Position numbers and translations under genes: made by a program. From positions 1 to 64,000 of the forward strand of contig JAFGJO010000065.1 of assembly GCA_016929065.1 (NCBI GenBank): DNA of 64,000 nucleotides, read 5' to 3'. This DNA comes from Spirochaetales bacterium. Lineage in GTDB: Bacteria; Spirochaetota; Spirochaetia; SZUA-6; RPPD01. The notes beneath the pieces are model-generated. The model did no database searches and was not told the origin of the DNA. It saw nothing but the letters and a program-made list of their open reading frames with translations. Shown piece after piece: positions 4,196 through 47,970 of the stretch (within the stretch, counting starts at the first letter, position 1; the number at the start of each line of letters is the position of its first letter).

Positions 4196-4224
4196 ATTTA
4201 TCACAGGAGAAGTTAGACTGTCAA
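4196..4224 (-). promoter_or_regulatory. Candidate vegetative promoter of the yebC-ruv-queA operon
   Basis: On the minus strand TTGACA (4224-4219), a 17-base spacer and ATAAAT (4201-4196). The -35 is perfect and the -10 is fair. It lies about 100 bases before the yebC start in an otherwise empty gap. Confidence 0.45.
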
Positions 4225-4253: not shown

Positions 4254-6341
4254 TCAGGCTCTTGCCATTTCACGATTTGATTTGATGATCATGTCAGGAA
4301 TTTGCGAAGCCGGCACAGACCGTGAAAATAAAAAACCCTGATATTTTTCACATCCCAAATTCTTCAAAAACTCCAGCTGGGAGATATCTTCGACTCCTTC
4401 GGCGATAATATCAAATTTCAGGCTTTGAGCCATTGCCACAATCGCACGGACGATGGCAACCGCATCATCATCTCCCGGAACATCCATTATGAAGGAGCGG
4501 TCTATTTTCAAGGTAGAAAGCGGAAACCGTTTCAACATGGAGAGCGAAGAATACCCGGTACCAAAATCATCAATAGAAAGAGATACCCCCAGTTCCTTAA
4601 GCCGTTCCATGATGCGGATTGATGTCTCCGGATCGGTCATCGCATGGCTCTCGGTAATTTCAAGCTCAAGCCGCCGGGGATCAACACCTGTTTTTTCAAG
4701 CGTTCGTTTCAGGGTTTTCACCAGATCCTCCTGGTTGAATTGAAGCGGTGAAAGGTTCACTGCAAGGCGTTGAATATCCAGGCCATCGCTGGTCCACTCC
4801 TTGAACTGGGTGCATGCTTTTTCCAGTATCCACTCTCCAATTGGAATAATCATTCCATTGTCTTCTGCAAGCGGGATGAGCTGTCCCGGAGGAACAAGCC
4901 CGTTTTCCGGATTTTTCCAGTGAACAAGTACCTCAACTCCAAACATTCTTCCATTATATACATTGACAAGGGGCTGATAAAACAGGATCAACTCGTCGCG
5001 TTCGATAGCCTTGCGCAAAAGGGTTTCTATATTCATCCGCTCCTTGACTTCGCGGTACATATCTTCACAGAAAAATCTGAAATTATTGTTTCCGGCAGAT
5101 TTCGCCCGCTGCATTGCGGATTCTGCATCCTGAAGGGTCCGCTGTACTGACTCATATTTCTCATCAACAATTACCACTCCTATACTGGAGGTCACGATGA
5201 TTTCCTCGGTAAGCTGCGGTAATGAGATGGGGGCCGCAATGTTTTTTCTGATTTTCATCACCAGACTGGTGATATATTTTAAATGATGAAAATCGGGGAC
5301 CAAAAGCAGGAACTCATCGCGGCCAAAGTGCGCAAGAATGTCCTCGGGGCCGATTGTTTCATTGAGACGTGAGGCAATTTCCGCCAGTACCGCATCGCCG
5401 ACAACAATTCCCAGCGCCTGGTTGATGAGTTTAAAACGGTCCAGATCAATAAAAATCAGGGCCGCCTGCTGGTTTGGATTGTTTTTAAACTGCCGCAAGA
5501 GGCGTTCAATCTGGTCGAGCAGGAGCACCTGGTTGGGCAGTCCTGTCACAGCATTATAAATCCTGCGGTCGGTAATGTCGCTCATGGAGCCGGTCAGCCG
5601 GATAATCTCACCTGTTTCATCCGGGACCGCAATACCGGTTGTGATGACCCAGCGGTAACTGCCGTCCCGGTGAATAATCCGCTGTTCTTCTTCGAATCTG
5701 GTTATTTTGCCGCTGAGCATTTTTTCAAACGCCAGGGTCATGGTTCCCCGGTCTGCGGGATGGAGACGATCCAGCCAAATCTCCGGGGTATTCTCCAGCT
5801 CATCTTCCCCATAGCCGATTATCTTTTTCCAGTTCGGCGAGTAGTAAATCACGTTTTTCTCTATCTCCCAATCCCATAACCCGTCCATCGTGGCCTGGGC
5901 CGCAAGCGCATACCGCTCTTCACTCTTTTTTAATGCTTCCTGCGTTTTTTTCAGGGATATCTGCGTGCTGATACGGGAACGGATGACTGAAAAATCATAT
6001 GGTTTGGTCACATAGTCATTCGCACCAAGTGAAAGTGCTTTGATGATATGGGGATTGTCAGATACAGCGGTGAGCATAATAATCGGGAGCTCCATCATGG
6101 AAAACTTTTCCCTGACGACCTCCAGTACGGAAAATCCATCCATCTCCGGCATCATCACATCGAGCAGCATAAGATCAAATCTTATTTCAAGTATTTTTTC
6201 GATTGCAGATTTACCATCAAGCGCAGTTTGTATATGATATCCGGTTTTCGAAAGAATGGTATTCAACATAATAAGATTGTCTTTGTTGTCATCAACAATC
6301 AATATTCGTGCTTTATACTGATCCAAGTTCAGTTTTCGCAT
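4254..6341 (-). CDS. Receiver-PAS-GGDEF-EAL protein, probable c-di-GMP phosphodiesterase
   Basis: About 695 residues from the ATG at 6341, chosen over the ATG at 6353 because GGAG lies 6 bases upstream of it. Order: receiver (about 5-125) with the Asp pair IVDDNKD, phosphoacceptor in LLDVMMPEMDG, and TKP; PAS (about 145-265); GGDEF-like (about 270-430); EAL (about 445-690). The cyclase signature reads GRDEF instead of GGDEF, so the cyclase site is probably inactive or regulatory. The EAL domain keeps EVL, NLSP, ITES, IDDFGTGYSS, KIDRSF and AEGVED, so phosphodiesterase activity is expected. It stands alone on the minus strand. A phospho-input raising c-di-GMP hydrolysis is my inference. Confidence 0.9.
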   Translation of the reverse strand: MRKLNLDQYKARILIVDDNKDNLIMLNTILSKTGYHIQTALDGKSAIEKILEIRFDLMLLDVMMPEMDGFSVLEVVREKFSMMELPIIMLTAVSDNPHIIKALSLGANDYVTKPYDFSVIRSRISTQISLKKTQEALKKSEERYALAAQATMDGLWDWEIEKNVIYYSPNWKKIIGYGEDELENTPEIWLDRLHPADRGTMTLAFEKMLSGKITRFEEEQRIIHRDGSYRWVITTGIAVPDETGEIIRLTGSMSDITDRRIYNAVTGLPNQVLLLDQIERLLRQFKNNPNQQAALIFIDLDRFKLINQALGIVVGDAVLAEIASRLNETIGPEDILAHFGRDEFLLLVPDFHHLKYITSLVMKIRKNIAAPISLPQLTEEIIVTSSIGVVIVDEKYESVQRTLQDAESAMQRAKSAGNNNFRFFCEDMYREVKERMNIETLLRKAIERDELILFYQPLVNVYNGRMFGVEVLVHWKNPENGLVPPGQLIPLAEDNGMIIPIGEWILEKACTQFKEWTSDGLDIQRLAVNLSPLQFNQEDLVKTLKRTLEKTGVDPRRLELEITESHAMTDPETSIRIMERLKELGVSLSIDDFGTGYSSLSMLKRFPLSTLKIDRSFIMDVPGDDDAVAIVRAIVAMAQSLKFDIIAEGVEDISQLEFLKNLGCEKYQGFLFSRSVPASQIPDMIIKSNREMARA

Positions 6342-17615: not shown

Positions 17616-18797
17616 ATGCCGAAAAAACCCTGGATCATCCTGCTTGTTTCATTATGTTATATTGTTTCACCTTTTTTCATCCTCCTGCAGGCGTCGATAA
17701 TTACCAATTATCCAATCATTGGATTTATCAATATTTTTCAAAAACTGTCAATTTTTGACTGGATACTACTTGCAATCTATTTCATCGCGGCTGTATCGAT
17801 TTTTTCGGTAAAGAAATGGGGCTGGTACTGCTTTATCGTGGCTTCCATTCTGCTTGTTGCGTCCAATAGTATCATATTCATCCTCCGTCCCTATTATGCA
17901 GCAGGTGCGCTTGTTGCGTATAATCTCATTATCTCTGTAGCTGCGGGCATATTTTTCCGGCGGGAGTTGATTGCGCCCTATTTTAACCCGCAAATAAGAT
18001 GGTGGACACAGGCTCCCCGCTACAGCATTGAATACACAGCCGAGATAGGCTACAAGCCGGGCCGTATCAGTGCTGAAATCCTTGACATTTCAGAAACCGG
18101 TATTTTTGTGATCACCGAAAAACCCCTTGAAGAACACACACCCTACCCGATGTGTATTCGATGCGCCGGTTATCGGATTTTAGTTGACGCAAAAGTGGTC
18201 CGGATGAAGGAACTTGCTGACGAAACACTAAAAAAAGGGTATGGCATGAAGTTTATCCATATCTCTGCTATCGAAAAAAAAGCCTTGAGCGCCCTTATCC
18301 TTCGATTGGAAAAAGGCGGAATGTCCGATACTGAACGGTTAATTTTCGAGCAGAATGAAAAAAAACTGCAGACATCGCCCCGATTTGTTATTCAAACCTC
18401 TGCGTTGATGCGGGTAAACAATAAAACACACGGGGGAAAACTGAAGGATATCTCGGCAACCGGCTGCCTGCTGAAAGTCCCCGGATTTCAAACACTTTCC
18501 CCCGGACTCCCGGTGCATCTGACACTTTCCTGTTTTTCCCGGCTCGCCGAAATCAATGGTATTGTCTGCTGGCTGAAAAACGAGGAGAATACCGCACTTG
18601 CAGGAATTGTGTTCACTGACCCATCCAAAAAAACACAGGAGACGGTAAAATGCATTATTAATGCAGGAAAAACAGCGGGAGCACAACTCCGACTAAAAAC
18701 AGCCCGTCCGCTGCCGATGGAAAAGATCGAAGAGTATGCACTCAACAGCCCCTATAAAATAATTCATGGTGTGAAGAAAAAAGTGTTAAAAAGATAA
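17616..18797 (+). CDS. Membrane protein with two PilZ-like domains
   Basis: 393 residues. Four or so hydrophobic segments lie in the first 120 residues, then two tandem cytoplasmic PilZ-like units: one around 130-225 with ILDISETGIFV, another around 245-340 with LKDISATGCLL. PilZ domains bind c-di-GMP through an RxxxR motif plus D/NxSxxG. The second half is present in both units, but the first reads RYSIE and RFVIQ, lacking the second Arg, so binding may be weak or absent. Linkage to the EAL protein at 4.3-6.3 kb is suggestive only. A copy of the dispersed word encodes ILRP at the last membrane segment. Confidence 0.75.
   Translation: MPKKPWIILLVSLCYIVSPFFILLQASIITNYPIIGFINIFQKLSIFDWILLAIYFIAAVSIFSVKKWGWYCFIVASILLVASNSIIFILRPYYAAGALVAYNLIISVAAGIFFRRELIAPYFNPQIRWWTQAPRYSIEYTAEIGYKPGRISAEILDISETGIFVITEKPLEEHTPYPMCIRCAGYRILVDAKVVRMKELADETLKKGYGMKFIHISAIEKKALSALILRLEKGGMSDTERLIFEQNEKKLQTSPRFVIQTSALMRVNNKTHGGKLKDISATGCLLKVPGFQTLSPGLPVHLTLSCFSRLAEINGIVCWLKNEENTALAGIVFTDPSKKTQETVKCIINAGKTAGAQLRLKTARPLPMEKIEEYALNSPYKIIHGVKKKVLKR
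17881..17891 (-). repeat. GGGACGGAGGA word, copy 2 (in PilZ gene)
   Basis: TCCTCCGTCCC, read as Leu-Arg-Pro in the PilZ protein frame. Confidence 0.7.
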
Positions 18798-21176: not shown

Positions 21177-21188
21177 TCCTCCGTCCCC
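21177..21188 (-). repeat. GGGGACGGAGGA word, copy 3 (intergenic)
   Basis: Exact TCCTCCGTCCCC six bases after the LacI/AraC stop, between converging genes. Confidence 0.75.
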
Positions 21189-21216: not shown

Positions 21217-22098
21217 TTATTCCATACCGTTCATCCGCGCACAGACCCGGTACAGTGCCTGCACTCCAAGATTTTCAAAGCCTATTGCAATCGCAGCAAT
21301 ATAGAACTGATACACCAGAGCCAGGCATGGAAGCGACAGGTTCATTCGGCGGCATTCTGAAAGCGCTATCCCCATATCTTTTACAAAATGTTTGATATAG
21401 AATCCGGGATCAAAATCATTTTTGACAATGCGCGGTGCCACTTTGTTGATACTGAACGAACCAGCTGCTCCTTTTCCGACAATGGCGATTACCTCGTCCT
21501 GTGAGAGTCCTGCTTTTTGGGCATATAGAAGAGATTCAACAACCCCCGCCATATTTGCAGCAATCAGGATCTGATTGCACATCTTTGTGTGCTGTCCCGT
21601 TCCGGCCGGTCCCATATAGGCAATATGTTCTCCAAATGTTTCAAACACCGGCAGTACCGCTTTGAAAGCCTCTTTATCACCGCCGGCCATGATCGCCAAC
21701 CTGCCATCGCGAGCACCCACATCTCCGCCGGAAACAGGTGCATCAAGGACAACAACTCCCTGTGATTTTGCTTTCGCTGCTATGGTTTTTGCCAGGTCGG
21801 GAATGCTCGTGGTCATATCAACAAGAATGGAGCCGCTTTTTGCGCCTGCAAGAACGCCCTCCGTCCCCAAAAAAACCTGCTTAACATCATCCGGGAACCC
21901 TACGATCGTAAAGACAATATCGGATACTGCTGCAACTTCCTTTGGTGATTCGGCCCAGATCGCACCGGCAGCTATCAGCTCCCCGGCTTTTTCCCGTGTC
22001 CGGTTGTATACCGTTACTGTATTTCCGGCCGTAAGGACATGCAGACACATCTGTTTTCCCATGACACCCGTGCCGATCCATCCTATTTTATATTCCAT
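21217..22098 (-). CDS. NAD(P)-dependent beta-hydroxyacid dehydrogenase (3-hydroxyisobutyrate/tartronate-semialdehyde type)
   Basis: 293 residues, normal for the family, which reversibly oxidises short 3-hydroxyacids. Rossmann motif GWIGTGVMGKQM at the N-terminus, substrate-binding DAPVSGGDVGARDG near 120, and the catalytic Lys in GTGQHTKMCNQI near 170. Members include 3-hydroxyisobutyrate dehydrogenase, tartronate semialdehyde reductase and succinic semialdehyde reductases; the sequence does not separate them. Divergent from the Ca2+ ATPase gene. The dispersed word is read as Gly-Thr-Glu-Gly around residue 80. Confidence 0.88.
   Translation of the reverse strand: MEYKIGWIGTGVMGKQMCLHVLTAGNTVTVYNRTREKAGELIAAGAIWAESPKEVAAVSDIVFTIVGFPDDVKQVFLGTEGVLAGAKSGSILVDMTTSIPDLAKTIAAKAKSQGVVVLDAPVSGGDVGARDGRLAIMAGGDKEAFKAVLPVFETFGEHIAYMGPAGTGQHTKMCNQILIAANMAGVVESLLYAQKAGLSQDEVIAIVGKGAAGSFSINKVAPRIVKNDFDPGFYIKHFVKDMGIALSECRRMNLSLPCLALVYQFYIAAIAIGFENLGVQALYRVCARMNGME
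21858..21868 (-). repeat. GGGGACGGAGG word, copy 4 (in dehydrogenase gene)
   Basis: CCTCCGTCCCC; read Gly-Thr-Glu in the gene, the same frame as in queA. Confidence 0.7.
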
Positions 22099-22169: not shown

Positions 22170-22181
22170 TCCTCCGTCCCC
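22170..22181 (-). repeat. GGGGACGGAGGA word, copy 5 (intergenic)
   Basis: Exact TCCTCCGTCCCC in the divergent gap, just upstream of the candidate promoter of the ATPase gene. Confidence 0.75.
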
Positions 22182-22265: not shown

Positions 22266-25058
22266 ATGCACCATTTGCCGATCACCGAGACTGCAGAAAA
22301 ACTGTTCACCAGCACAGAAAAAGGCATTGCTGCATCTGACATTGAAGCCCGCCGGGCAAAATCCGGATTCAACGAACTCACTGAAAAAAAACGGGCAGGA
22401 CTTTTCAGCCTGATATTCAATCAATTAAATAATTTTCTGGTCATCATCCTTATCATCGCGGCAATTGTTTCCTTTTTACTGGAGGAACCAATCGACGGCA
22501 GCGCAATACTGGCAATTGTCCTTATCAACGCCATTCTCGGAATCATCCAGGAATCAAAAGCAGAGAATGCTCTTGCTGCCTTAAAAAGAATGGCTGCACC
22601 AAATGCAGTTGTACTCCGCGACGGCCAGCGTCTCACCATTCCCGGACGAGAACTGGTACCGGGAGACATAGTCATCCTGGAGGCCGGTAATTATGTCCCT
22701 GCTGACCTTAGACTAAGTGAATCCGTGAATCTTAAAATCAATGAATCATCCTTGACCGGCGAATCCAATCCGGTGAACAAGGATGCTCAGGTTGTGCTGG
22801 ACAAGGATATTCCCCTCGGCGACAAACACAATACCGCATTTATGGGAACAATGGTTACCTACGGCAGGGGGACCGGTATTGTTGTGTCAACCGGCATGAA
22901 CACAGAGATGGGAAAAATAGCGGAAATGCTCCAATCATACACGGAAGAACCCACACCGCTTCAGAAAAAGCTTGATCAACTGGGAAAATGGCTGGGGATT
23001 TTCGCGCTTGGAATCTGTCTGCTTATCCTGATCATCGGCATACTCCGTGATACCAATGTCGCCATGATTTTCCAGCAAGGGGTTGGCGCGTATCTGGAAA
23101 ATAATACCGACACCCTCCAGCGGCTTTTTATGACCGCGGTGGGCCTTGCCATTGCCGGGGTCCCCGAAGGGCTCCCCGCAGTTGTAACAATTTGCCTCGC
23201 TTTGGGAATGCAGCACATGATCCGGCGTCACGCTTTGATTCGAAAACTTCCCGCAGTCGAGACCCTTGGATGCACAACCGTCATCTGTTCCGACAAAACC
23301 GGCACCCTGACCCAGAATGCCATGACCGTTAAGGAAATTGTCACAGCTGATACCGGTTTTACGGTCACCGGAGACGGGTATGCACCGGAGGGAAAATTTT
23401 TTATCGATGAACATGAGGCTACTGTAGAAGAAGCTCCGTCCCTCTCAAGCCTCCTGTATGGAGCGCTGGTATGCAATGACGCCCACATCCGGCCTGATGA
23501 AACCGGTAATTCCAGGACATGGGTACTTACCGGGGATCCGACTGAGGGGGCGCTGGTCACTGTTGCGGGAAAAGCAGGCTTTACAAAGGAAAAAGCGGGA
23601 GAAACCTTGCCCCGCATCGCCGAGATTCCGTTTGACTCGGAACGGAAACGTATGACAACCATTCACGAAATTATGGCAGAAAATGTCATCCCCGAACTGA
23701 AAAGCGGGTACATCGCCTTTACAAAAGGTGCTCCCGATATGCTCCTTGAATGCTGTTCGAAAATCTACCAGAACGGCACAATTCAGCCTCTGACCCCGGA
23801 AAAAAAGGCTGGTTTGCTTGCAAAAAACTCAGAAATGGCCGGACGGGCGCTGCGGGTGCTGGGAGTCGCTGTTTCGCAGGTATCCTCCGTCCCCGAAGAG
23901 CCGAAACCTGAGGAAATTGAACAAAATCTCATCTTCCTTGGATTGCTGGGCATGATTGATCCTCCGCGCACAGAAGTCATTGCCGCCCTGAAAACGGCAA
24001 AGGATGCCGGGATAAAAACAGTCATGGTCACTGGTGATTACAAGGAAACAGCAGCGGCGATCGCGGGAAAAATCGGCCTTTTATCCGAAAACGGCAAGGT
24101 ATTCTCGGGAAGCGAAATCGACTCATTCAGCGATGCTGAGTTTGCCGCTATTGTCGAGCAGACCGATGCATTCGCCAGGGTTTCTCCCCAGCACAAGGTC
24201 AAAATCGTTGATGCGCTGCGGCAAAAAGGCCATGTGGTGGCGATGACCGGGGACGGAGTAAATGATGCACCTGCTTTAAAACGCGCCGATATCGGTATTG
24301 CAATGGGGATAACAGGTACCGATGTTACCAAAGAAACAGCTGATGTTGTTCTTACCGATGACAATTACACAAGCATTGTTGCAGCGGTTGAACAGGGACG
24401 CATCATTTACTCGAATATCCGGAAATTTGTGCTGTACCTGCTGGCCTGCAATATCGGTGAAATCCTCATTATGTTTTCTGCTCTTCTATTGGGAATGCCG
24501 ATTCCGCTCTCCCCGCTCATGTTGCTGTGGCTGAATCTTATCACTGACGGAGCACCGGCAATTGCCCTGGGGCTTGAGTCGGGAGAACCAGGAATCATGA
24601 AACTGCCGCCACGTCCACCAAAAGAACCTGTAATCAACCAGCGCATGACTTTTTCAATTTTACTGATTGCCGTCGCGGATGCAGCAGCAGTACTCAGCGC
24701 ATATGTGTTTGCCCTGAACCGGCATCCTGGCGAACCGGGAGTACCGATCGCAATGACGGTTGCGTTTGCCACACTCGTTTGCTCTGAACTTGTCCGGGCA
24801 TTTACTTCGCGATCAGAACTGCTATCAATTTTTTCCATCGGGATATTCAAAAACAAAACAATGATCCTGGCGACCAGCGGATCGCTTCTGCTCTTACTGG
24901 CAGTACTGTATTTTCCGCCCCTGTCATCTGTGTTTAAAACTGTACCGTTAACCGGAACAGACTGGCTGTATATGCTGCCGTTTGTATTTATTGCGCCTTT
25001 GGTACAGGAAATAATTAAATTTGTAAACAGGCGGTTGTTAAAAAAGAACCTGCAATGA
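22266..25058 (+). CDS. P-type Ca2+-transporting ATPase (P2A, SERCA/PMCA-like)
   Basis: 930 residues, ATG behind GAGGGAG. Exports Ca2+ (or a related divalent ion) using ATP. Canonical order: actuator TGES near 155, M4 with GVPEGLP, phosphorylation site DKTGTLT, nucleotide-domain KGAPDMLLE, hinge TGD and GDGVND, M6 with NLITDG, and C-terminal helices M7-M10. The paired PEGLP and NxxTDG motifs support Ca2+ over H+. Adjacent to a sodium/proton-type permease and a membrane pyrophosphatase. One perfect word copy encodes SSVP in the nucleotide domain; a one-mismatch copy lies at 23433. Confidence 0.94.
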   Translation: MHHLPITETAEKLFTSTEKGIAASDIEARRAKSGFNELTEKKRAGLFSLIFNQLNNFLVIILIIAAIVSFLLEEPIDGSAILAIVLINAILGIIQESKAENALAALKRMAAPNAVVLRDGQRLTIPGRELVPGDIVILEAGNYVPADLRLSESVNLKINESSLTGESNPVNKDAQVVLDKDIPLGDKHNTAFMGTMVTYGRGTGIVVSTGMNTEMGKIAEMLQSYTEEPTPLQKKLDQLGKWLGIFALGICLLILIIGILRDTNVAMIFQQGVGAYLENNTDTLQRLFMTAVGLAIAGVPEGLPAVVTICLALGMQHMIRRHALIRKLPAVETLGCTTVICSDKTGTLTQNAMTVKEIVTADTGFTVTGDGYAPEGKFFIDEHEATVEEAPSLSSLLYGALVCNDAHIRPDETGNSRTWVLTGDPTEGALVTVAGKAGFTKEKAGETLPRIAEIPFDSERKRMTTIHEIMAENVIPELKSGYIAFTKGAPDMLLECCSKIYQNGTIQPLTPEKKAGLLAKNSEMAGRALRVLGVAVSQVSSVPEEPKPEEIEQNLIFLGLLGMIDPPRTEVIAALKTAKDAGIKTVMVTGDYKETAAAIAGKIGLLSENGKVFSGSEIDSFSDAEFAAIVEQTDAFARVSPQHKVKIVDALRQKGHVVAMTGDGVNDAPALKRADIGIAMGITGTDVTKETADVVLTDDNYTSIVAAVEQGRIIYSNIRKFVLYLLACNIGEILIMFSALLLGMPIPLSPLMLLWLNLITDGAPAIALGLESGEPGIMKLPPRPPKEPVINQRMTFSILLIAVADAAAVLSAYVFALNRHPGEPGVPIAMTVAFATLVCSELVRAFTSRSELLSIFSIGIFKNKTMILATSGSLLLLLAVLYFPPLSSVFKTVPLTGTDWLYMLPFVFIAPLVQEIIKFVNRRLLKKNLQ
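23883..23894 (-). repeat. GGGGACGGAGGA word, copy 6 (in Ca2+ ATPase gene)
   Basis: TCCTCCGTCCCC read as Ser-Ser-Val-Pro in a loop segment ending EEPKPEE. Confidence 0.75.
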
Positions 25059-25068
25059 CGGTTTTTTG

Positions 25069-25080
25069 GGGGACGGAGGA
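25069..25080 (+). repeat. GGGGACGGAGGA word, copy 7 (intergenic)
   Basis: Exact copy in the 42-base gap between the converging ATPase and permease genes. Confidence 0.75.
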
Positions 25081-26417: not shown

Positions 26418-26429
26418 TCCTCCGTCCCC
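26418..26429 (-). repeat. GGGGACGGAGGA word, copy 8 (intergenic)
   Basis: Exact TCCTCCGTCCCC in the divergent gap, 39 bases upstream of the permease start. Confidence 0.75.
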
Positions 26430-29084: not shown

Positions 29085-29096
29085 GGGGACGGAGGA
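29085..29096 (+). repeat. GGGGACGGAGGA word, copy 9 (intergenic)
   Basis: Exact copy 29 bases after the hppA terminator, unconnected to any hairpin. The rest of the hppA-amt gap to 29347 is AT-rich, with a small dyad CTAC-N6-GTAG at 29185-29198. Confidence 0.75.
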
Positions 29097-30810: not shown

Positions 30811-30821
30811 GGGACGGAGGA
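30811..30821 (+). repeat. GGGACGGAGGA word, copy 11 (glnK leader)
   Basis: Occupies the last 11 bases before the glnK TTG. The functional ribosome site AAAGGAGG (30805-30812) overlaps its left edge; the GGAGGA of the word is too close to the start to serve. Confidence 0.75.
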
Positions 30822-31163
30822 TTGAAATTAATAGTAGCATTAATACAGCCACATAAACTTGAAGATGTAAAGAAAGCCCTTTTTGCTGCAGAGGTGCATA
30901 AAATGACTGTATCATCAGTACTGGGGTGCGGACAACAAAAAGGGTATACTGAAAATTACCGCGGAGTAATTTCTGAGATCAATTTACTGAAGAAAATACG
31001 ACTGGAAATTGCGGTGAATGACAATTTTGTTGACCCGACAGTGAAGGCAATTATAGAAGGTGCAAAAACCGGCAATATCGGCGATGGTAAAATATTCATA
31101 ACCAACCTGACCGAATGTATCAGAATTAGAACTGGTGAAACGGGGCACGAAGCCATTGGCTAA
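30822..31163 (+). CDS. glnK: PII nitrogen regulatory protein (GlnK/GlnB), T-loop Tyr51 absent
   Basis: 113 residues, TTG start with AAAGGAGG 9 bases upstream. Trimeric PII protein that binds ATP/ADP and 2-oxoglutarate and here probably gates Amt, being its co-transcribed neighbour. B-loop region [10 protein letters not shown] and C-terminal IRIRTGE are intact. The T-loop reads [20 protein letters not shown]. Aligned to E. coli GlnB (YRGAEYMVD), the uridylylated Tyr51 position holds Ser. Uridylylation at that site is therefore not expected; control may be by ligands only or by Ser modification as in cyanobacteria (inference). Confidence 0.93.
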
Positions 31164-31190
31164 CAGGGTCGGAGGATATTTTTCAAAAAT

Positions 31191-31218
31191 GGGCTGCTGA
31201 AAAGCGGCTCTTTTTTTT
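31191..31218 (+). terminator. Rho-independent terminator after glnK
   Basis: GGGCTGCT-GAAA-AGCGGCTC with two G-U pairs, then eight T. Closes the amt-glnK unit. An imperfect dispersed word (GGGTCGGAGGA, 31166-31176) lies just before it. Confidence 0.85.
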
Positions 31219-31317
31219 ATAGTTATACTAATTTTTTTTAATGTTTTGAAAGCACCATACCAATTTCATATGTAATTGTATTTATAAAAATTATTATAAA
31301 GAAAAAAGAGGTGCATC

Positions 31318-31845
31318 ATGAGAAAACCAAGACAATTACGGGAGCATGCAAAGTATCACGTCACCGCTCGGGCGAATCGACAGGAAATGATTTTTCACTC
31401 TGAGGTAATAAAGCAATTATTTCTTGAAACTATATCACGTGCAAAAAGAAAGTTCAATTTCACAATCTATCATTTTTGTATAATGGGGAATCACATCCAT
31501 TTCATTCTTCAACCCCATAAAGGTCAGAATTTGTCCCGAATAATGCAATGGATATTAAGTGTATTTGCTGTCCGATTCAACAGCACATTTAAATTAAAGG
31601 GGCATGTATGGTATGATCGTTTTACAAGTAAAATTATTGAAAGTGTACGCCAATTTATTTCAACTTTTGAATATATTACTCACAATCCGCAAAAAGCAAA
31701 TTTGGTAAAAGATATCTTTTTGTATGAATACTGCGCACTGAACCATTATAAACACTCCAACTATAAAATCGTTGATCCGCCGGATACTCTGTTACTTCTA
31801 TTATTTCCCCAATATATGATGCAGCAATTACAGATCACAGATTAA
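31318..31845 (+). CDS. RAYT-type Y1 transposase (IS200-like, REP-associated)
   Basis: 175 residues, ATG behind AGAGGTG. Single-strand HUH endonuclease: the metal-binding pair is in MGNHIHFIL and the probable catalytic Tyr in FEYITHNPQKANLV. The N-terminal PRQLREHAKYHVTARANRQ and the single-copy, terminal-repeat-free setting fit the RAYT class, which is domesticated or acts on short dispersed REP sequences, not on itself. It sits between an imperfect copy of the GGGACGGAGG word (31166, plus) and a perfect one (32083, minus). It may be the enzyme that spread the word, or may bind it (inference). Confidence 0.9.
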   Translation: MRKPRQLREHAKYHVTARANRQEMIFHSEVIKQLFLETISRAKRKFNFTIYHFCIMGNHIHFILQPHKGQNLSRIMQWILSVFAVRFNSTFKLKGHVWYDRFTSKIIESVRQFISTFEYITHNPQKANLVKDIFLYEYCALNHYKHSNYKIVDPPDTLLLLLFPQYMMQQLQITD

Positions 31846-32146
31846 TTGACTTTGTTGATTATTATTCTTTCAACTCTAAAATACAGGAATTAAACATCTG
31901 GTAAAAGCAGCATTTGCAGGTTTCTAAAGTCGAATAATTTCAGTACTTTTTTCTCAGCGATTATTTAATAGCTGTTCGAACAAACAGGGTTCATCACAAT
32001 TGATTAAAATAATTAATTATTTGTAAAGTTGAACTGGGGCATCATTATTCTTGTTATTATGTTCAGCTTTTTTATTTTTTATCCTCCGTCCCCAAATACC
32101 GTTTCATATTAGGTTTTTTCCATATTTTGATATTATATTAAAGGCT
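31846..32146. other. Gap downstream of the RAYT gene
   Basis: About 300 AT-rich bases. The only recognisable feature is word copy 12 at 32083; I find no REP-like palindrome or terminal repeat. Confidence 0.5.
32083..32094 (-). repeat. GGGGACGGAGGA word, copy 12 (intergenic)
   Basis: Exact TCCTCCGTCCCC, 238 bases after the RAYT stop and 53 before the FHA-transglycosylase start. Confidence 0.75.
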
Positions 32147-33184: not shown

Positions 33185-33194
33185 CCTCCGTCCC
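33185..33194 (-). repeat. GGGACGGAGG word, copy 13 (intergenic)
   Basis: CCTCCGTCCC three bases after the hairpin, six before the end of the convergent gene. Confidence 0.7.
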
Positions 33195-33200
33195 TTTTAT

Positions 33201-34178
33201 TTACAATTCTTTAATTTCCATATAGACCAGTGTCTGATTCAATAACTGATAGGCAATTTCACCAAAGGTTACAGGCCCTTTTAAATCTCCGGTTTTTTTT
33301 CCTTCAAGCTCTGAATACAGATAATTCAAAATACAATTACACGAAAAAACCGTTTTCAGGGATCCTTTTGGGATACATGATGTAAACTCCTCAATATAAT
33401 TGCGAACAGGCGCGGCAATTCTATACTCGACACCGGGGAATACCGGCGCATAGAAATTTACCGTTTGTGTATCTTGATCAACTGCCTGAAAACTTACATT
33501 GATCATCGATCCATGGTAATCAGCCACAAGGGGAAGTTTTGTATCGATCTTTCCCTTCATTAGATAATCAGCAAAATTGATTTGCTGATTATTAACGAAA
33601 CAATCTTTTACAGAAAATCCCTTTTTGGGGAAAGTGATGGTATCGCCTGTGCCCTGTGTAAATAAATTTATGATGCCGATTTGGGCGATAAAATTATCCG
33701 GCAATGATCCATGAAGGACCACAGCTTTGTTATCGGACTTTTCACCAGTTAATCCATTAAATACTTTTGGGGTCTCTTTGCCCAAATCAGCCAAATCTAT
33801 TCCCGAAATCCACCCGATGATTGGTTTCAGGAATATGTCAGTATAGTTTGACGCATTTTCAGCATATTGAATATGGACATCACTGCTTGCCGGAATAATG
33901 ATAATTGAACATCCATTAATACTTGCATCTATCGGAATATTTTCGAGAGTGGCGGTATTATAATATTTTATTGCTTCAAGCTTCAGATATTCCGGAAGTT
34001 CGGTAATGAAGACTTTTCCCCTGGAAAACTCACCACCTCCGTCCCCAATAAAATAAGGAATAGTTCCTCCAATCCAATTTCCCTTCGGTAACCTGGATAA
34101 TAATGCTTCATCGCCAGCCAGACTGAGCACTTTTCCAGACTCTATATATTTTCGGGCTTCTTCAATTGTAACAAGCAT
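33201..34178 (-). CDS. Conserved protein of unknown function, FIST/DUF6976-like
   Basis: 325 residues; ATG at 34178 behind GGAGGAG. No signal peptide or membrane helix, so cytoplasmic. The segment LPKGNWIGGTIPYF near the N-terminus and the Cys-containing KTVFSCNCILNYLYSELEG near the C-terminus resemble proteins I recall as FIST-like sensory or DUF6976 proteins; this is recollection, not a search. It follows the small gene at 34180-34410 with a one-base gap, so the two are co-translated. A word copy is read as Gly-Asp-Gly-Gly near residue 47. Confidence 0.5.
   Translation of the reverse strand: MLVTIEEARKYIESGKVLSLAGDEALLSRLPKGNWIGGTIPYFIGDGGGEFSRGKVFITELPEYLKLEAIKYYNTATLENIPIDASINGCSIIIIPASSDVHIQYAENASNYTDIFLKPIIGWISGIDLADLGKETPKVFNGLTGEKSDNKAVVLHGSLPDNFIAQIGIINLFTQGTGDTITFPKKGFSVKDCFVNNQQINFADYLMKGKIDTKLPLVADYHGSMINVSFQAVDQDTQTVNFYAPVFPGVEYRIAAPVRNYIEEFTSCIPKGSLKTVFSCNCILNYLYSELEGKKTGDLKGPVTFGEIAYQLLNQTLVYMEIKEL
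34036..34046 (-). repeat. GGGGACGGAGG word, copy 14 (in FIST-like gene)
   Basis: Read Gly-Asp-Gly-Gly in the gene frame. Confidence 0.7.
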
Positions 34179-34491: not shown

Positions 34492-34502
34492 GGGACGGAG
34501 GA
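34492..34502 (+). repeat. GGGACGGAGGA word, copy 15 (intergenic)
   Basis: Seven bases upstream of the -35 box of the GH43 gene. Confidence 0.75.
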
Positions 34503-34558: not shown

Positions 34559-36166
34559 ATGAACCAGAACAGACAGTATCACAATCCAATATTGCGGGGA
34601 TTTTACCCCGATCCATCAATTGTACGGGTACATGACGACTTTTTCATGGTGAACTCAACTTTTGAATACTTCCCTGCAATCGTCATTTCACACTCCAAAG
34701 ATATGGTAAACTGGCGGACAATTGGTCATGCATTGACCAGGAACGATCAGATTGATCTGACAGGAATTGAAGACTCTCATGGATTTTGGGCTCCCGACAT
34801 TTCTTTTCATGATGGGACCTTCTATATTTTTGTGACACTTCGTCTGAACGGGCATGTAACCGAATCAGCCGGTAAAACCATCCGTAGACAGGTTGTGATA
34901 TCCAGTAAAAATCCAGGAGGTCCATACTCTCATCCGATTTTCATTGATATTGATGGTATTGATCCAAGTCATTTCATTGATGACGATGGGAAACATTATA
35001 TAGTTCTCAATCCCGGGGCAAGATTAGTACAATTGAATGACACCTGCACGGCATCTGTTGGAGACCCGGTCACAATATGGAAGGGAACCGGGCTCCCGTG
35101 CCCCGAGGCCCCACATATTCTGAAAAAAGATGGCTGGTATTATTGTATACTTGCGGAAGGGGGGACTGGATATGACCATCAGGTATCCGCTGCAAGGGCC
35201 AGCAAACTGTTGGGGCCCTATGAGCCGAGCCCATATAACCCGGTAATGGTCCAGACCGATCCGTCAGGGATGATTCAGCGTGCCGGACATGGAAAACTGA
35301 TCGAGACACAACACGGTGATTGGTGGATGGTTTATTTATGCAGTCGAAAAAATGATGGGAATTTTACTACTCTTGGCCGCGAGACCGCCCTGGATCCAGT
35401 TCAATGGACAAATGACGGCTGGTTTACTGTAAATAATGGTAAGGGCCCCAGTACAAAACAGATTTGCCCCAATTTGCCGGAATCCTCCGTCCCCTGCTTC
35501 TCTCTTGACGATTTTGATTCAACAACTCTTCACTCCGCATGGCAATTTGTAAGAAATCCTGATAATGAACTTTGGTCACTTGCAGCACGGCCTGGACACT
35601 TGCGACTTATTGCTGCAAATGCACCTCTTGGCAGTCTTCATGCAAAAAACATTCTTCTACGAAGAGAGCAACACTTTTTTTTCACTGCAACAGTAAAATT
35701 GCAATTTAATCCATCACTTCCCGGACATGAAGCCGGCCTGGTTGCATATCATGGCAGACACTGCTTTATCAAGATTTTCCTTACCTTTGAAAATGGATTA
35801 ATTATAAAAGCTGAAGAAAATCGAAACGATATTTCGTCATTAATTGGATCCTCCATCCCTCTTTCTAAAACTACTGTCTATCTACAAATGCTGGTGACAC
35901 GCCAAAAAAGGGAATGTCTGTACAGTAGAGACAATCATAACTGGATGAGCCTTGGGATAGTAAATGACGCTACATTTTTGTCGAATGAAGGTGTACACAT
36001 TGGAAAACACCACACAGGGACACTTATAGGGATATATGCGACGGACGGGGAGACCGGGGAACGGTTAATTGCTGATTTTGACTGGTTTAAATATATTGGA
36101 ACTGATGACAAGGAAGACCTCCGTCCCTCAAACACGGCTCCCACGCGACAGGTGATTCACCCTTGA
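34559..36166 (+). CDS. Glycoside hydrolase family 43 (beta-xylosidase/alpha-L-arabinofuranosidase)
   Basis: 535 residues without signal peptide, so an intracellular enzyme trimming imported xylo- or arabino-oligosaccharides. Five-bladed propeller with the catalytic base Asp in GFYPDPS near residue 18, the pKa-modulating Asp in DGIDPSHFID near 140, and the acid Glu in CPEAPHIL near 182. A C-terminal beta-sandwich (about 330-520) is typical of the xylosidase subfamilies. Two word copies lie in the sandwich region, read as SSVP at the domain junction and LRP near the C-terminus. Genes on either side point to plant-polysaccharide use, with LacI-like sensors nearby. Confidence 0.93.
   Translation: MNQNRQYHNPILRGFYPDPSIVRVHDDFFMVNSTFEYFPAIVISHSKDMVNWRTIGHALTRNDQIDLTGIEDSHGFWAPDISFHDGTFYIFVTLRLNGHVTESAGKTIRRQVVISSKNPGGPYSHPIFIDIDGIDPSHFIDDDGKHYIVLNPGARLVQLNDTCTASVGDPVTIWKGTGLPCPEAPHILKKDGWYYCILAEGGTGYDHQVSAARASKLLGPYEPSPYNPVMVQTDPSGMIQRAGHGKLIETQHGDWWMVYLCSRKNDGNFTTLGRETALDPVQWTNDGWFTVNNGKGPSTKQICPNLPESSVPCFSLDDFDSTTLHSAWQFVRNPDNELWSLAARPGHLRLIAANAPLGSLHAKNILLRREQHFFFTATVKLQFNPSLPGHEAGLVAYHGRHCFIKIFLTFENGLIIKAEENRNDISSLIGSSIPLSKTTVYLQMLVTRQKRECLYSRDNHNWMSLGIVNDATFLSNEGVHIGKHHTGTLIGIYATDGETGERLIADFDWFKYIGTDDKEDLRPSNTAPTRQVIHP
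35483..35494 (-). repeat. GGGGACGGAGGA word, copy 16 (in GH43 gene)
   Basis: Read Ser-Ser-Val-Pro at the linker between propeller and sandwich. A one-mismatch copy (TCCTCCATCCCT) follows at 35849. Confidence 0.7.
36118..36127 (-). repeat. GGGACGGAGG word, copy 17 (in GH43 gene)
   Basis: Read Leu-Arg-Pro in the C-terminal tail of the GH43 protein. Confidence 0.65.
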
Positions 36167-36200: not shown

Positions 36201-37265
36201 ATGAAATCATACAGAGTAGTTATCATCCTTGCGCTTTTCGGCATTGTCATTGCGATACTTGTTTTTTTTGGAGAACCAAACCTCCGTCCCTCGTTTCATA
36301 ATGACCTGTCCCATCTGAGTATTAAAAAAATCGACTATAACATTACGGTTTTCACCTGGGAACCACCTGATTGGGATGACTACTATCATTTTGCTGTTCA
36401 AAAAGCGATAATTTATGACCATCGGGATAAACAGAGCCCTCTTTACAGGCTTAATAACGGAGAAAAGATATCCTCCGTCCCTGAACTCGCTGGAATAATA
36501 AAAAGCTCTATTCTTATTGCCAAACAATCTGACGGTGCATTCGATCCAACTATTTTACCGCTTACCTCGCTCTGGGCGTTTGACAAGGGGGGGCGGCTTC
36601 CCACTCCTGACGAAATTCGGGCCGGGTTACAAAAAATCGGGTACAATAAAATCCATTTGGATGATTCAGAGGTCATACAATTGCCACCAGGGATTCAGCT
36701 CGATCTCGGCGGTATCGCAAAAGGAACGATTATTGATGAAATAGGCGACTATTTTGATGACCATGGCTTCAACAATTATTTGATCGAAGGCGGTGGAGAT
36801 ATAATCGTTAAAAACACAAAACCAAACGGTGCCCTATGGAGAATCGCACTTCGGGCGCCCCGTATTCCCGGAGTTCCCTTCGAATCAGGAAAATTTGAAA
36901 AGGGTCGGCTAAAACCCATCGGTATTGTAGAAATTGGAAAGCCAGGCCAAAAAATAGCATTGGTCACCTCGGGTGATTATGAACGTGTCTTTCGCGAAAG
37001 TGGTAAAATTTATCATCACCTCCTGGATCCAAAAACAGGGTACCCCGCAAGAGGTACTGCTTCGGTGACAGTGATTGCATCGACCTGCGAACAGGCAGAC
37101 GCACTTGCCACAGCGGCATTTGTCAAAGGATATGATGAAGGACTGAAGTTTCTGGAATCATTACCGAATGTTGAGGGATTGCTCATTAAAGATATAGGAA
37201 ACGGCGATGTTGAGACAGCAAAAACAAGCGGGTTCCCGGAATTAATACCAATTACAACAGATTGA
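36201..37265 (+). CDS. apbE: FAD:protein FMN transferase (ApbE family)
   Basis: 354 residues. An N-terminal hydrophobic anchor (about 5-25) places it on the periplasmic face, where ApbE links FMN to Thr/Ser of flavoproteins such as Rnf or Nqr subunits. Family motifs: SDGAFDPTILPL, LDLGGIAKG, IEGGGDI, and HHLLDPKTGYPA with the catalytic-site His/Asp. Two word copies, read as LRP just after the anchor and SSVP near residue 92, both fall outside the catalytic motifs. No Rnf/Nqr gene lies in this window. The ribosome site before the ATG is poor. Confidence 0.93.
   Translation: MKSYRVVIILALFGIVIAILVFFGEPNLRPSFHNDLSHLSIKKIDYNITVFTWEPPDWDDYYHFAVQKAIIYDHRDKQSPLYRLNNGEKISSVPELAGIIKSSILIAKQSDGAFDPTILPLTSLWAFDKGGRLPTPDEIRAGLQKIGYNKIHLDDSEVIQLPPGIQLDLGGIAKGTIIDEIGDYFDDHGFNNYLIEGGGDIIVKNTKPNGALWRIALRAPRIPGVPFESGKFEKGRLKPIGIVEIGKPGQKIALVTSGDYERVFRESGKIYHHLLDPKTGYPARGTASVTVIASTCEQADALATAAFVKGYDEGLKFLESLPNVEGLLIKDIGNGDVETAKTSGFPELIPITTD
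36281..36290 (-). repeat. GGGACGGAGG word, copy 18 (in apbE)
   Basis: Read Leu-Arg-Pro directly after the membrane anchor. Confidence 0.65.
36471..36481 (-). repeat. GGGACGGAGGA word, copy 19 (in apbE)
   Basis: Read Ser-Ser-Val-Pro, 190 bases after the previous copy but in a different frame. Confidence 0.7.
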
Positions 37266-37272
37266 TGACCCA

Positions 37273-37283
37273 CCTCCGTCCCC
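37273..37283 (-). repeat. GGGGACGGAGG word, copy 20 (intergenic)
   Basis: Eight bases after the apbE stop; direct repeat with copy 21, 54 bases apart. Confidence 0.75.
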
Positions 37284-37326: not shown

Positions 37327-37338
37327 TCCTCCGTCCCC
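37327..37338 (-). repeat. GGGGACGGAGGA word, copy 21 (intergenic)
   Basis: 26 bases upstream of the -35 box of the chemoreceptor gene. Confidence 0.75.
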
Positions 37339-39889: not shown

Positions 39890-40852
39890 ATGAACTATAC
39901 ATTTCTTGGGAAAACCGGGGTTCAGGTGTCTGAACTCTGTTTCGGGACCATGACATTCGGGAATCAGGCTGATGAGGCGGAATCAAAGCGTCTTTTTTCT
40001 GCCGCTTGTGATGCCGGAATAAATTTCTTTGACTCTGCAAATGTCTACGGCAGGGGAATTGCAGAAACAATTCTCGGGAAGTGCATACAGGGACGGAGGA
40101 ATGAGCTGGTGATCACCACAAAGGTATACAACAAAATGTCCGACCAGATCAACGACCGCGGCAGCTCGCGCAGGCATATTACCGCTGCTATCGAGGCCAG
40201 CCTGAAACGGCTGCACACCGATTATGTCGATATTTATTTTCTGCACGGCTGGGATGAACACACTGCACTGGAAGAAACACTGTCCACGCTCACCACTCTT
40301 ATGGAAAAGGGGAAAATTATCTATTACGGCATTTCAAATTTCTCTGCCTGGCAGATTGAAAAAGCAATTCGGGTGGCAGAACGAAACAACCTCCGTCCCC
40401 CGTCGGTCATTCAGCCGATGTACAATCTGGTAAAACGGCAGGCTGAGGTGGAAATTCTGCCAATGGCCCTGGATGAAAATCTCGGCGTTATTTCCTACAG
40501 TCCGCTCGGTGGCGGATTATTGACCGGAAAATATCTGAATTCTGCGGATACATCCCGCGGCAGGCTTGATGAAAACGACAAATACAAACGCAGGTTTGGG
40601 CTGCCCCGTTACCGGGATGCGGCGGAAAAATTTATAGAGTATGCTGAAAAAACCAGAACAAGTCCTATCAGTCTGGCAGTGGCCTGGGTACTCGCCCATC
40701 CAGCAGTAACGGCGCCTATTATTGGCGCGAGGAGTGTCGAGCAGCTTCGCCCAAGTCTTGATGCGGTAAAGATTGACATGACGCCTGAACTGTATGAGAA
40801 ACTATCCTCATTTTCAGAGGCTCCGCCGCCGGCCACTGACCGCAACGAGTAA
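39890..40852 (+). CDS. Aldo/keto reductase
   Basis: 320 residues, typical NADPH-dependent TIM-barrel oxidoreductase of the potassium-channel-beta/YajO-like group. Asp in FFDSANVYGRG, Lys in VITTKVYN and His in IYFLHGWDE make the catalytic set with the Tyr of NVYG; the cofactor segment IIGARSVEQL is near the C-terminus. Starts 22 bases after the chemoreceptor gene, so probably co-transcribed, perhaps acting on a sugar aldehyde sensed by it (inference). Two word copies lie in it, opposite in orientation: GRR near residue 68 and LRP near residue 168. Confidence 0.92.
   Translation: MNYTFLGKTGVQVSELCFGTMTFGNQADEAESKRLFSAACDAGINFFDSANVYGRGIAETILGKCIQGRRNELVITTKVYNKMSDQINDRGSSRRHITAAIEASLKRLHTDYVDIYFLHGWDEHTALEETLSTLTTLMEKGKIIYYGISNFSAWQIEKAIRVAERNNLRPPSVIQPMYNLVKRQAEVEILPMALDENLGVISYSPLGGGLLTGKYLNSADTSRGRLDENDKYKRRFGLPRYRDAAEKFIEYAEKTRTSPISLAVAWVLAHPAVTAPIIGARSVEQLRPSLDAVKIDMTPELYEKLSSFSEAPPPATDRNE
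40090..40100 (+). repeat. GGGACGGAGGA word, copy 22 (in aldo/keto reductase gene)
   Basis: Read Gly-Arg-Arg in the reductase frame. Confidence 0.7.
40390..40400 (-). repeat. GGGGACGGAGG word, copy 23 (in aldo/keto reductase gene)
   Basis: Read Leu-Arg-Pro; opposite orientation to copy 22 in the same gene. Confidence 0.7.
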
Positions 40853-40868
40853 TCATCCTCGAAAACAA

Positions 40869-40880
40869 TCCTCCGTCCCC
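40869..40880 (-). repeat. GGGGACGGAGGA word, copy 24 (intergenic)
   Basis: In the 48-base gap between the converging reductase and metalloprotease genes. Confidence 0.75.
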
Positions 40881-45058: not shown

Positions 45059-45070
45059 TCCTCCGTCCCC
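45059..45070 (-). repeat. GGGGACGGAGGA word, copy 25 (intergenic)
   Basis: 21 bases before the radical SAM gene start, in the position where a promoter -10 or leader would be expected. The rest of the 44866-45091 gap holds a degenerate ACAGGAT/CACAAAGG-type repeat remnant near 44930-44970. Confidence 0.75.
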
Positions 45071-46317: not shown

Positions 46318-47889
46318 TCACTGGTAACTGATTGCCCGAGGGGTGCTGCACCGGGAGAAGAATAACTCAAGCAGCTTTTCATCCATATTCTCTACCTCAA
46401 CCAGCTTTTTTTCTTTATTTTCTCTGACAATTGTGAAAAGCATCTTTTTCTGAAACGATTGTTCGATACAATCATCAACAAATTGCGAAATCCTCCGTCC
46501 CCTTTTTACACAGTTTATCAGCCGTGCAAGCCGGAATGCAGTGACAAGAGTCCGCGTGGAAAGCGAATTATTCCAGGGATACATCGATGAACCAAGGCTC
46601 AATCGCGGCGACAAGTCCCGAAACCGGGAATCATCTTCAAATCCCGGCAAACCCGGAACTGCATAAAACGGTGAAATCCCGATTTGTGTCGGCTGAACCG
46701 CGAGAAAGCCGAGCGCTTCTGCAATACTTTCCGGTGTGTCTTCGGGGAAACCAGCTATAAAATAGGTAATACAATGGATTTCAAGCTCAGCTGCCCGTTT
46801 GACAATGGAGGTATAGCGGTCAAGAGCCAGCCTCCGTCCCTGTTTTTTCAAAATTGAATCTGAAACCGATGCAAGCGACAAATTCAATTGTGTAAAACCT
46901 GAACATTTCAATATTTCCAGAAATTCCAGGGTCAACAGCTGATAATCAAGGCCATTCTCCGCTGAAAAACTTGCTTGTGGAAAAATGTCTTTGCAGATCT
47001 GTAACACTGCCATAAAATAATCCGGATCAACCAGCAGATTATCATCTTCAAAGTTAAAATGGGGAAAAAGCGGGGACGGAGGAACACTTTTCTGGTTTTT
47101 AATCGCCAGGAAGCGTTCTTTTACGCTCTGGAGCGGGGCTTTTCGAAACCTCCGTCCCTGAACGATAAAATTAGTACAGAAACGGCACTGTTTTGGACAG
47201 CCCCGTGCCAGGGAAACAGAGAAAAACGGTTTCCCATTGAGCGTTGTAGTTTTCACAATAGCCGGTTGCGGCTCATTATTCAGAACCTGGGGCGTCAAAG
47301 ACCGGCAAACTTCTGTCCCCTGTTTCCAAAACAATCCAGGAATTTCAAAAAACCGCGGTTCCTCCGTCCCTGTTTTTTCCAATAACGCACACAACAGCAC
47401 CAAAGAACGGTCACCTTCCCCTGTTATGACAAAATCAATACTTTTTTCTTTCATAAAATACTCAGGAAAAGCACTCAAACCACTGCCGCCGCAAATGACA
47501 GGCAACCGGGGACGGAGGATTTTTATCGCTGCTGATAATTCCACGGCCTCCTCTGCATACGCCCACGCAAAGAGGGATATACAGACCAGATCAGGTTGTT
47601 CCTGAACAATTTGTTGAGCACAAACCGGAAAATCCGGTCCAAACCTCTTGTACTGGGTAAAAAAACTTACCGGCCCGGTTTCATGGGGAATGATAAACGG
47701 TTTCAGATATGATACGGGCCGGGGCAGAGGCACAGCAGTCGAGTACCCATAGGCAGGGAAATTCATCTTTGTTACGATATGTCCATGCTGCTTCAGGCGG
47801 TTTTTTAAAACCTCCGTCCCCAATGCAGCCATTCGGTGCGGCGTCGAGTAAAAATCACAGATTGGCGGACAGGCGATAAGTATGCGCAT
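46318..47889 (-). CDS. Cobalamin-binding radical SAM protein carrying seven copies of the dispersed word
   Basis: 523 residues from the ATG at 47889 (MRILIACPP, AAGGGA upstream). N-terminal B12-binding domain (about 1-170) with LVCISLFAWAYAEEAVELS and ICGGSGLSAFPEYF; radical SAM core from about 215 with GCPKQCRFC, the FNFEDDNLLVD and CITYFIAGFPEDTPES segments. Members are methyltransferases or unknown oxidoreductases. Seven exact words (46491, 46831, 47072, 47149, 47360, 47508, 47811) lie in it in both orientations, giving GRR, GRR, PPSP, GRR, GTE, LRP and GTE. The gene is converging with the kinase fragment. Substrate unknown. Confidence 0.88.
   Translation of the reverse strand: MRILIACPPICDFYSTPHRMAALGTEVLKNRLKQHGHIVTKMNFPAYGYSTAVPLPRPVSYLKPFIIPHETGPVSFFTQYKRFGPDFPVCAQQIVQEQPDLVCISLFAWAYAEEAVELSAAIKILRPRLPVICGGSGLSAFPEYFMKEKSIDFVITGEGDRSLVLLCALLEKTGTEEPRFFEIPGLFWKQGTEVCRSLTPQVLNNEPQPAIVKTTTLNGKPFFSVSLARGCPKQCRFCTNFIVQGRRFRKAPLQSVKERFLAIKNQKSVPPSPLFPHFNFEDDNLLVDPDYFMAVLQICKDIFPQASFSAENGLDYQLLTLEFLEILKCSGFTQLNLSLASVSDSILKKQGRRLALDRYTSIVKRAAELEIHCITYFIAGFPEDTPESIAEALGFLAVQPTQIGISPFYAVPGLPGFEDDSRFRDLSPRLSLGSSMYPWNNSLSTRTLVTAFRLARLINCVKRGRRISQFVDDCIEQSFQKKMLFTIVRENKEKKLVEVENMDEKLLELFFSRCSTPRAISYQ
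46491..46502 (-). repeat. GGGGACGGAGGA word, copy 26 (in B12-radical SAM gene)
   Basis: Read Gly-Arg-Arg near the C-terminal part of the protein. Confidence 0.75.
46831..46840 (-). repeat. GGGACGGAGG word, copy 27 (in B12-radical SAM gene)
   Basis: Read Gly-Arg-Arg. Confidence 0.7.
47072..47083 (+). repeat. GGGGACGGAGGA word, copy 28 (in B12-radical SAM gene)
   Basis: Opposite orientation; read Pro-Pro-Ser-Pro, the only use of this frame in the window. Confidence 0.75.
47149..47158 (-). repeat. GGGACGGAGG word, copy 29 (in B12-radical SAM gene)
   Basis: Read Gly-Arg-Arg. Confidence 0.7.
47360..47370 (-). repeat. GGGACGGAGGA word, copy 30 (in B12-radical SAM gene)
   Basis: Read Gly-Thr-Glu-Glu. 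Confidence 0.7.
47508..47519 (+). repeat. GGGGACGGAGGA word, copy 31 (in B12-radical SAM gene)
   Basis: Opposite orientation; read Leu-Arg-Pro in the B12-binding domain. Confidence 0.75.
47811..47821 (-). repeat. GGGGACGGAGG word, copy 32 (in B12-radical SAM gene)
   Basis: Read Gly-Thr-Glu near residue 25. Last copy in the window; the tRNA-Ala gene begins 150 bases on. Confidence 0.75.
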
Positions 47890-47970
47890 TGATCCCTTAT
47901 ACAAAACTTTTGGGGTTTTTTCGTCAAGACCTTGACATTTGCATGCTCCTGTCATTATTATTCACCTATC

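Follow-up and report, generated by a model that had tools for sequence, protein, structure and literature searches.

The closest described relatives of the locus reported here are the REPtrons and the TIRtrons. TnpA-REP binds and cleaves single-stranded REP (PMC8266576), and in the E. coli protein the residues that read the GTAG guide are Q95, E100, H101 and R104 (PMC6006769). In Marinomonas MWYL1 the REPs of the Ma and Mb REPtrons are concentrated near two tnpA-REP genes, a pattern read as recent arrival (PMC8266576). The TIRYTs carry flanking inverted repeats that share GGGGWSAS (PMC3733652), and most of them belong to subclass 2.1 (PMC6006769). For TnpA-REP subclasses 2.1 and 2.3 REP-like repeats were not found, and those TnpA-REP genes that do have repeats have hairpins (PMC6006769). 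The RAYT repeats for which we found a description form hairpins or are inverted repeats of greater length, and large RAYT groups are without a reported repeat (PMC6006769). In the clade presented here a bare word of 10-12 nt appears to serve as the cognate element, with many natural protein-word variants, some of them within one genome, which makes recognition, the residues responsible, and the spread or persistence of RAYT-linked repeats directly testable. Simple transposition does not predict a gene-centred cloud of words conserved in place; such a cloud would be a new, locus-centred form of genome organisation. Searching the open-licence literature we found no description of the word in bacteria, the matches being unrelated eukaryotic or primer sequences.

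The locus lies in a 64,000-nt stretch of DNA from a Spirochaetales bacterium, the whole of which we call the window. Its RAYT gene and the words around it are as follows.

17882-17891, minus strand: leftmost halo word, in a PilZ-protein gene
21178-21187, minus strand: halo word, intergenic
21858-21867, minus strand: halo word, followed by G, genic
22171-22180, minus strand: halo word, intergenic
23884-23893, minus strand: halo word in a Ca-ATPase-like gene, gapless alignment with homologues
25070-25079, plus strand: halo word, intergenic
26419-26428, minus strand: halo word, intergenic
29086-29095, plus strand: halo word, intergenic
30811-30820, plus strand: word GGGACGGAGG immediately upstream of the TTG start codon of a P-II (glnB-like) gene
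31166-31175, plus strand: leader word GGGTCGGAGG (one mismatch; the 11-mer GGGTCGGAGGA spans 31166-31176), with the RAYT ATG about 142 nt downstream
31318-31845, plus strand: Y1 transposase (RAYT; HUH, single-tyrosine, REP-associated), 175 aa
32083-32092, minus strand: word GGGACGGAGG (11-mer GGGACGGAGGA at 32082-32092), inverted, about 237 nt past the RAYT stop
33185-33194, minus strand: halo word, intergenic
34036-34045, minus strand: halo word in a DUF6976 gene, may be a coding coincidence
34492-34501, plus strand: halo word, intergenic
35484-35493, minus strand: halo word in a GH43 gene, gapless against 6ms2
35850-35859, minus strand: halo word variant GGGATGGAGG in the GH43 gene
36118-36127, minus strand: halo word in the GH43 gene
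36281-36290, minus strand: halo word in an ApbE gene
36472-36481, minus strand: halo word in the ApbE gene
37273-37282, minus strand: halo word, intergenic
37328-37337, minus strand: halo word, intergenic
40090-40099, plus strand: halo word encoding GRR in an aldo-keto reductase gene, aligned without gaps to homologue 4xk2
40390-40399, minus strand: halo word in the aldo-keto reductase gene, gapless against homologues
40870-40879, minus strand: halo word, intergenic
45060-45069, minus strand: halo word, intergenic
46318-47955, minus strand: radical-SAM/B12-binding gene with seven words, at 46492 (minus), 46831 (minus), 47073 (plus), 47149 (minus), 47361 (minus), 47509 (plus) and 47811 (minus)

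Several comparisons support the window protein being a RAYT, as the original prediction had proposed. It carries HIH at residues 59-61 and the catalytic Tyr119 within Y-I-T-H-N-P, and the HUH motif and catalytic Tyr are invariant or nearly so among relatives in the clade. Y1_Tnp (Pfam PF01797, E 2.7e-16) was the only domain found in its 175 aa, with no C-terminal HTH, and the score against NCBIfam NF047646 (REP-associated tyrosine transposase) was 77.6 bits, just below the cut-off of 80. A PDB search with the single sequence gave no match; a profile built from 34 relatives matched the E. coli TnpA-REP structure 4er8 at E 9e-10, against 0.7-1 for IS200-type structures in the same comparison. 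The AlphaFold model (pLDDT 94.3) likewise retrieved 4er8 at rank 1 in Foldseek (TM 0.70/0.74). In the profile alignment Y99, S104, K105 and E108 occupy the positions of E. coli Q95, E100, H101 and R104, so the set of residues that reads GTAG is not kept. This gene is the sole Y1_Tnp match in the genome of the window. We also considered an IS200/IS605 insertion sequence and rejected it, as there is a single Y1 gene, no consistent downstream end, and divergent paralogues in relatives.

Around this gene the word is far commoner than chance would give. Allowing at most one mismatch, we counted 36 copies of GGGACGGAGG(A)/GGGACGGAGGA in the window; shuffled sequence had a mean of 0.72 and a maximum of 4. 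Genome-wide (3.49 Mb) there are 44 copies of the exact 11-mer versus 2 of the reversed control, and 78 copies of the exact 10-mer versus 3. About 40% of these exact 10-mers (31 of 78) fall in the roughly 33 kb round the RAYT, that is within about 17 kb of it, a region making up about 1% of the genome (binomial p about 1e-41). The window copies are nearly all confined to the interval from 17.9 to 47.8 kb. A single exact 10-mer lies further left; on the right, the rest of the window and the 20 kb of contig beyond it have none. The RAYT does sit between two oppositely oriented copies, about 142 nt upstream and about 237 nt downstream, as first described. The copy GGGACGGAGGA at 30811-30824 adjoins what appears to be the TTG start codon of the P-II gene and therefore overlaps or replaces its ribosome-binding region.

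A RAYT match was present in 13 of 60 related genomes. We took up to 10 kb either side of 20 of these RAYTs and looked for over-represented 9-mers without naming the word; a GGGAC(A/G)GA-type word came out as the most over-represented at 18 of the 20. A further scan of contigs gave 80 RAYT loci, essentially all from Spirochaetota (every one is labelled as a spirochaete except one from a bin labelled only 'bacterium'), and this set overlaps in part with the first, for example in genomes G008, G026 and G034. Nearly all the genomes are MAGs, although one named isolate, Rectinema subterraneum (locus L167), is included. At 60 of these 80 loci a word of the same type was among the top two over-represented 9-mers, again with no word named beforehand, and other loci had close variants, e.g., GGGTCGGAGC and GGGACAGTCC. 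The RAYT was the only recurrent gene, found at 72 of the 80 loci, the next family reaching 5, which rules out another shared gene as the cause of the word clusters. The RAYT matches at G001:C35:28850-29323 (L041, L082) and G022:C351 (L048) read through one in-frame TGA; these could be decaying RAYTs, or the stop may lie near the end of the gene. Despite the interruption the words form a strong local halo there (GGGACGGAGC in G001).

Pooling the 80 loci showed the shape of the halo. The word reaches 6-7 per kb over the 200 nt that precede the RAYT (90 copies on the same strand, 9 on the opposite), and on both sides its density then decays from about 0.67 per kb at 2-4 kb to 0.35-0.37 per kb at 8-10 kb, the reversed-motif control standing at about 0.04 per kb. 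Individual long contigs also show a word peak at the RAYT, and in the genome of locus L151 there are 137 copies of GGGACAGAGC against 1 of the control, mostly in clusters at its RAYTs, with at least 68 of 100 listed places within 25 kb of a RAYT. A leader word within 400 nt upstream, on the RAYT's own strand, was found at 70 of 79 loci, compared with 11 of 79 for the opposite strand, none for the reversed control and 10% for background windows; the distance from the end of this word to the ATG has a median of 63 nt (quartiles 52-86). Downstream of the RAYT the relatives' loci showed neither a consistent word nor a preferred orientation. Paired inverted copies, although present in the window, are thus not the rule, and what recurs consistently among relatives is the word upstream on the RAYT's strand. 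Word density is higher in intergenic DNA (1.12 per kb) than within genes (0.48 per kb). Genic words showed no sense or antisense bias (251 vs 223) and words in general no replication-strand bias, 252 of 484 being on the G-rich strand. Neighbouring words less than 60 bp apart are mostly direct repeats (about 110, versus about 21 inverted).

The link between RAYT and word extends across the clade, with every RAYT lineage having its own variant, even inside one genome. In G026 contig C74 has 12 copies of GGGACGGAGG and none of GGGACAGAGG, while contigs C153 and C92 have no GGGACGGAGG and a combined 17 copies of GGGACAGAGG. RAYTs sharing a genome likewise differ at L138 (16 GGGACAGAGC) and L142 (24 GGGAC(A/T)GTCC), and at L186 (16 GGGACAGAGC) and L190 (14 GGGACAGACC). 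Word variants follow the RAYT phylogeny, their labels requiring 23 changes versus 44 when shuffled. Residue 99, which aligns with E. coli Q95, is Tyr where base 6 of the word is G and mostly Gly where it is A. We do not regard this residue as independently established as a reader of the word: the correlation is strong, but it tracks phylogeny, and the test on 5 supported independent pairs is not significant and cannot separate the two.

That the word lacks a palindrome or hairpin had been noted before and was confirmed at several levels. Sequence logos limit conservation to R-GGGACRGASS-W, with no conserved flank; the word has no GTRG and hence no GTAG/GTGG foot; and inverted pairs are rare. 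DNA folding of 665 copies from related loci gave the native flanks slightly less structure than a control with the word transplanted nearby, and no extra structure was found for the window's own 36 copies. Palindromes do occur at individual loci. Some GGGACAGAGC words at L154 and L156 are joined head to head, L154 having six such palindromic fusions (GAGCTCTGT), and these could be a bridge between bare words and REP-like palindromes. The L142 word, GGGACAGTCC/GGGACTGTCC, is on its own an almost perfect palindrome about a single central base.

Taken together these data point to the RAYT and its word cloud being a hairpin-free, locally acting relative of REP systems. The reading towards which we lean, with moderate confidence in the whole including its proposed working, is a REPtron- or TIRtron-like pair consisting of a spirochaete-specific RAYT and a hairpin-free cognate word of 10-12 nt, R-GGGACRGASS-W. 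What the sequences themselves establish is the association, a word variant for each RAYT, the decay with distance, the fixed copy upstream, the lack of a palindrome and the conservation in place. Because the RAYT is homologous to TnpA-REP, we infer that the HUH enzyme would recognise the word directly on single-stranded DNA and nick or hold the DNA there. It would act mainly on DNA near its own gene, so that the range over which sites matter or arise would be about 10-15 kb. Base substitutions in ordinary genes and in intergenic DNA would create the words where they stand, and selection, presumably through some benefit, or RAYT-dependent maintenance would then keep them. The outcome would be that every RAYT is centred in a decaying cloud of its own word.

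We sought insertion footprints in protein homologues and in syntenic pairs of loci, using GC-matched 10-mers in the pairs as the expectation for conservation. In the pair L177/L185, 77% identical overall, 17 of 18 words are exactly conserved against 1.8 expected; the figures are 4 of 7 against 0.1 for L167/L172, where several further sites differ by one-base changes between word variants, and 6 of 8 against 0.8 for L175/L195. The pairs L154/L156 and L137/L151 showed little or no clear excess. Genic words in the aldo-keto reductase, the GH43 enzyme and the Ca-ATPase align without gaps to solved homologues, although one aldo-keto reductase word has a 3-residue gap nearby in some more distant homologues. 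The words in the radical-SAM gene are mixed: part of them align without a gap, and others sit in loops whose length differs slightly from that in homologues. Conservation in place, combined with mostly gapless alignment, therefore makes the words look maintained rather than freshly inserted, and by these comparisons they would mostly have arisen by substitution and then been kept. The suggestion that the enzyme moves the word thus finds no support, the alignments and conserved positions arguing against recent mobility; in the sense of recent insertion of copies, 'moves' is probably wrong. One could go further and propose that a domesticated RAYT builds or maintains an address word in place, without insertion, across 20-30 kb, producing a self-centred domain of sites distinct from transposition, REPs and uptake sequences. 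We offer this stronger version tentatively, as a reading that we hold to be less likely than not.

The most serious rival is classical amplification, with the RAYT copying short word-bearing pieces and inserting them nearby, so that the halo would be what local hopping has left behind. This would account for the concentration of words near the RAYT gene, for the direct tandem arrays upstream with 20-60 bp spacing, and for those words whose loops differ slightly in length from the homologous ones, and it has a precedent in Marinomonas, where REPs are concentrated near tnpA-REP (PMC8266576). We nevertheless think it unlikely, given that no conserved sequence travels with the word, that genic words in the aldo-keto reductase, GH43 and Ca-ATPase genes align without indels, and that the words are old and fixed in place.

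The preferred pairing of a RAYT with a bare word has clear likenesses to the described systems. TIRYTs also consist of a Y1 RAYT-like gene flanked by non-GTAG repeats, clustered in some genomes (PMC3733652; subclass 2.1, PMC6006769). The A-form of the present word, GGGGACAG, fits GGGGWSAS when G precedes it, and an evolutionary link with TIRYTs is therefore likely; the window's G-form GGGGACGG misfits at base 7. Published TIRs, however, are longer inverted repeats, whereas the repeat here is 10-12 nt with no consistent downstream inverted copy, forms a decaying halo and is conserved in place. The TIRYT protein is mostly longer, with a C-terminal HTH (subclass 2.1), while members of the present clade have about 160-180 aa. 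With the REPtrons of E. coli, Stenotrophomonas and Pseudomonas the locus shares a homologous HUH-Y1 protein (4er8) encoded by a low-copy gene, cognate repeats beside the gene and elsewhere in the genome, and a repeat of its own for each RAYT. It differs in that the word has no palindrome, GTAG foot or inverted pairs (REPIN/BIME), and in that its copies are often genic and clustered, REPs being genome-wide. Concentration near the gene is shared with the Marinomonas REPtrons (PMC8266576), but those are GTAG hairpins that their authors read as recently arrived, whereas the words here are bare, old, positionally conserved and in many cases genic, and the halo spans a whole clade.

DNA uptake sequences (DUS/USS) are another class of short non-palindromic words tolerated in coding sequence, and they spread genome-wide. 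On this model the words would be transfer or uptake-type marks, cf. Neisseria and Haemophilus, which would make transfer or recombination of the DNA round the RAYT more likely and so be built up by selection within one transfer tract of a selfish gene. In its favour, the 10-12-nt word is non-palindromic, is tolerated within genes in both orientations and keeps its positions, and the length of the halo may resemble that of a recombination tract. We rate the model as improbable: the present words are clustered and tied to the RAYT instead of genome-wide, and no shared neighbouring gene suggests a transferred block.

The original prediction had named the word without a RAYT as evidence that would tell against it, and partial counter-examples were found. 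The main counter-evidence to the RAYT-word link is G039, an 81%-complete draft with 38 words versus 6 for the control, in which neither profile nor Pfam detected a Y1 protein. A contig ends about 1.1 kb from one of its word arrays, and a RAYT may lie in unassembled sequence. Two other genomes, G037 (28 words vs 13 control) and G027 (23 vs 1), have only distant or broken Y1 genes. Contigs C28, C49 and C64 of the window's own genome (G000) have dense clusters of the same word where the assembly shows no nearby RAYT. The clusters far from the RAYT in this genome are these.

L204, 9274-10410: word cluster
L205, 13794-15582: word cluster
L206, 9346-10198: word cluster
L207, 2320-9462: word cluster

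Reading names from translations, the genes in these clusters are queG, glyA/alr and ogt, with a Dam-like methylase nearby; the 184-codon ogt gene has 5 words. The idea that a RAYT was once there is unsupported, as queG, ogt and alr have no homologues among the RAYT loci.

Such RAYT-less clusters (G000, G039) would be expected if the words were sites of some other host DNA-binding protein, among which the RAYT merely lives. This explanation would leave three things to be accounted for, namely that RAYTs of one genome have different words, that the loci share no gene except the RAYT, and that a word stands at a near-fixed position upstream of it, and in our view it has little chance of being right. 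Finally, chance, coding bias or a Shine-Dalgarno-like sequence might be suggested by the GGAGG within the word and by the few window copies that might simply be coding sequence (GDGG in the gene for an ammonium transporter, at 30229), but the word counts refute this already negligible option, with 36 copies against 0.72 expected, sense and antisense equally common at 251 vs 223, and GGAGG-less variants such as GGGACAGAGC behaving alike.

Other repeats were seen near RAYTs in passing. At L186, L178, L192 and L124 there are other strongly repeated 9-mers (CGAGGAACT/AGGAACTGG, ATGACTCGG, ATCCGTGTT and CAGGACTTT), apparently unrelated to the word. For long subclass-2.1-type RAYTs of the same phylum the word was absent nearby in three of four short contigs. 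The fourth, contig C233 of genome G034 (L214), has a long subclass-2.1-like RAYT with GGGTCAGAGG at 4204-4213 and 5574-5583. Genome-wide this sequence is hardly enriched (8 vs 4); it stands 27 nt upstream of the RAYT's matched domain, on its own strand, and this locus suggests that the longer RAYTs may have a related word.
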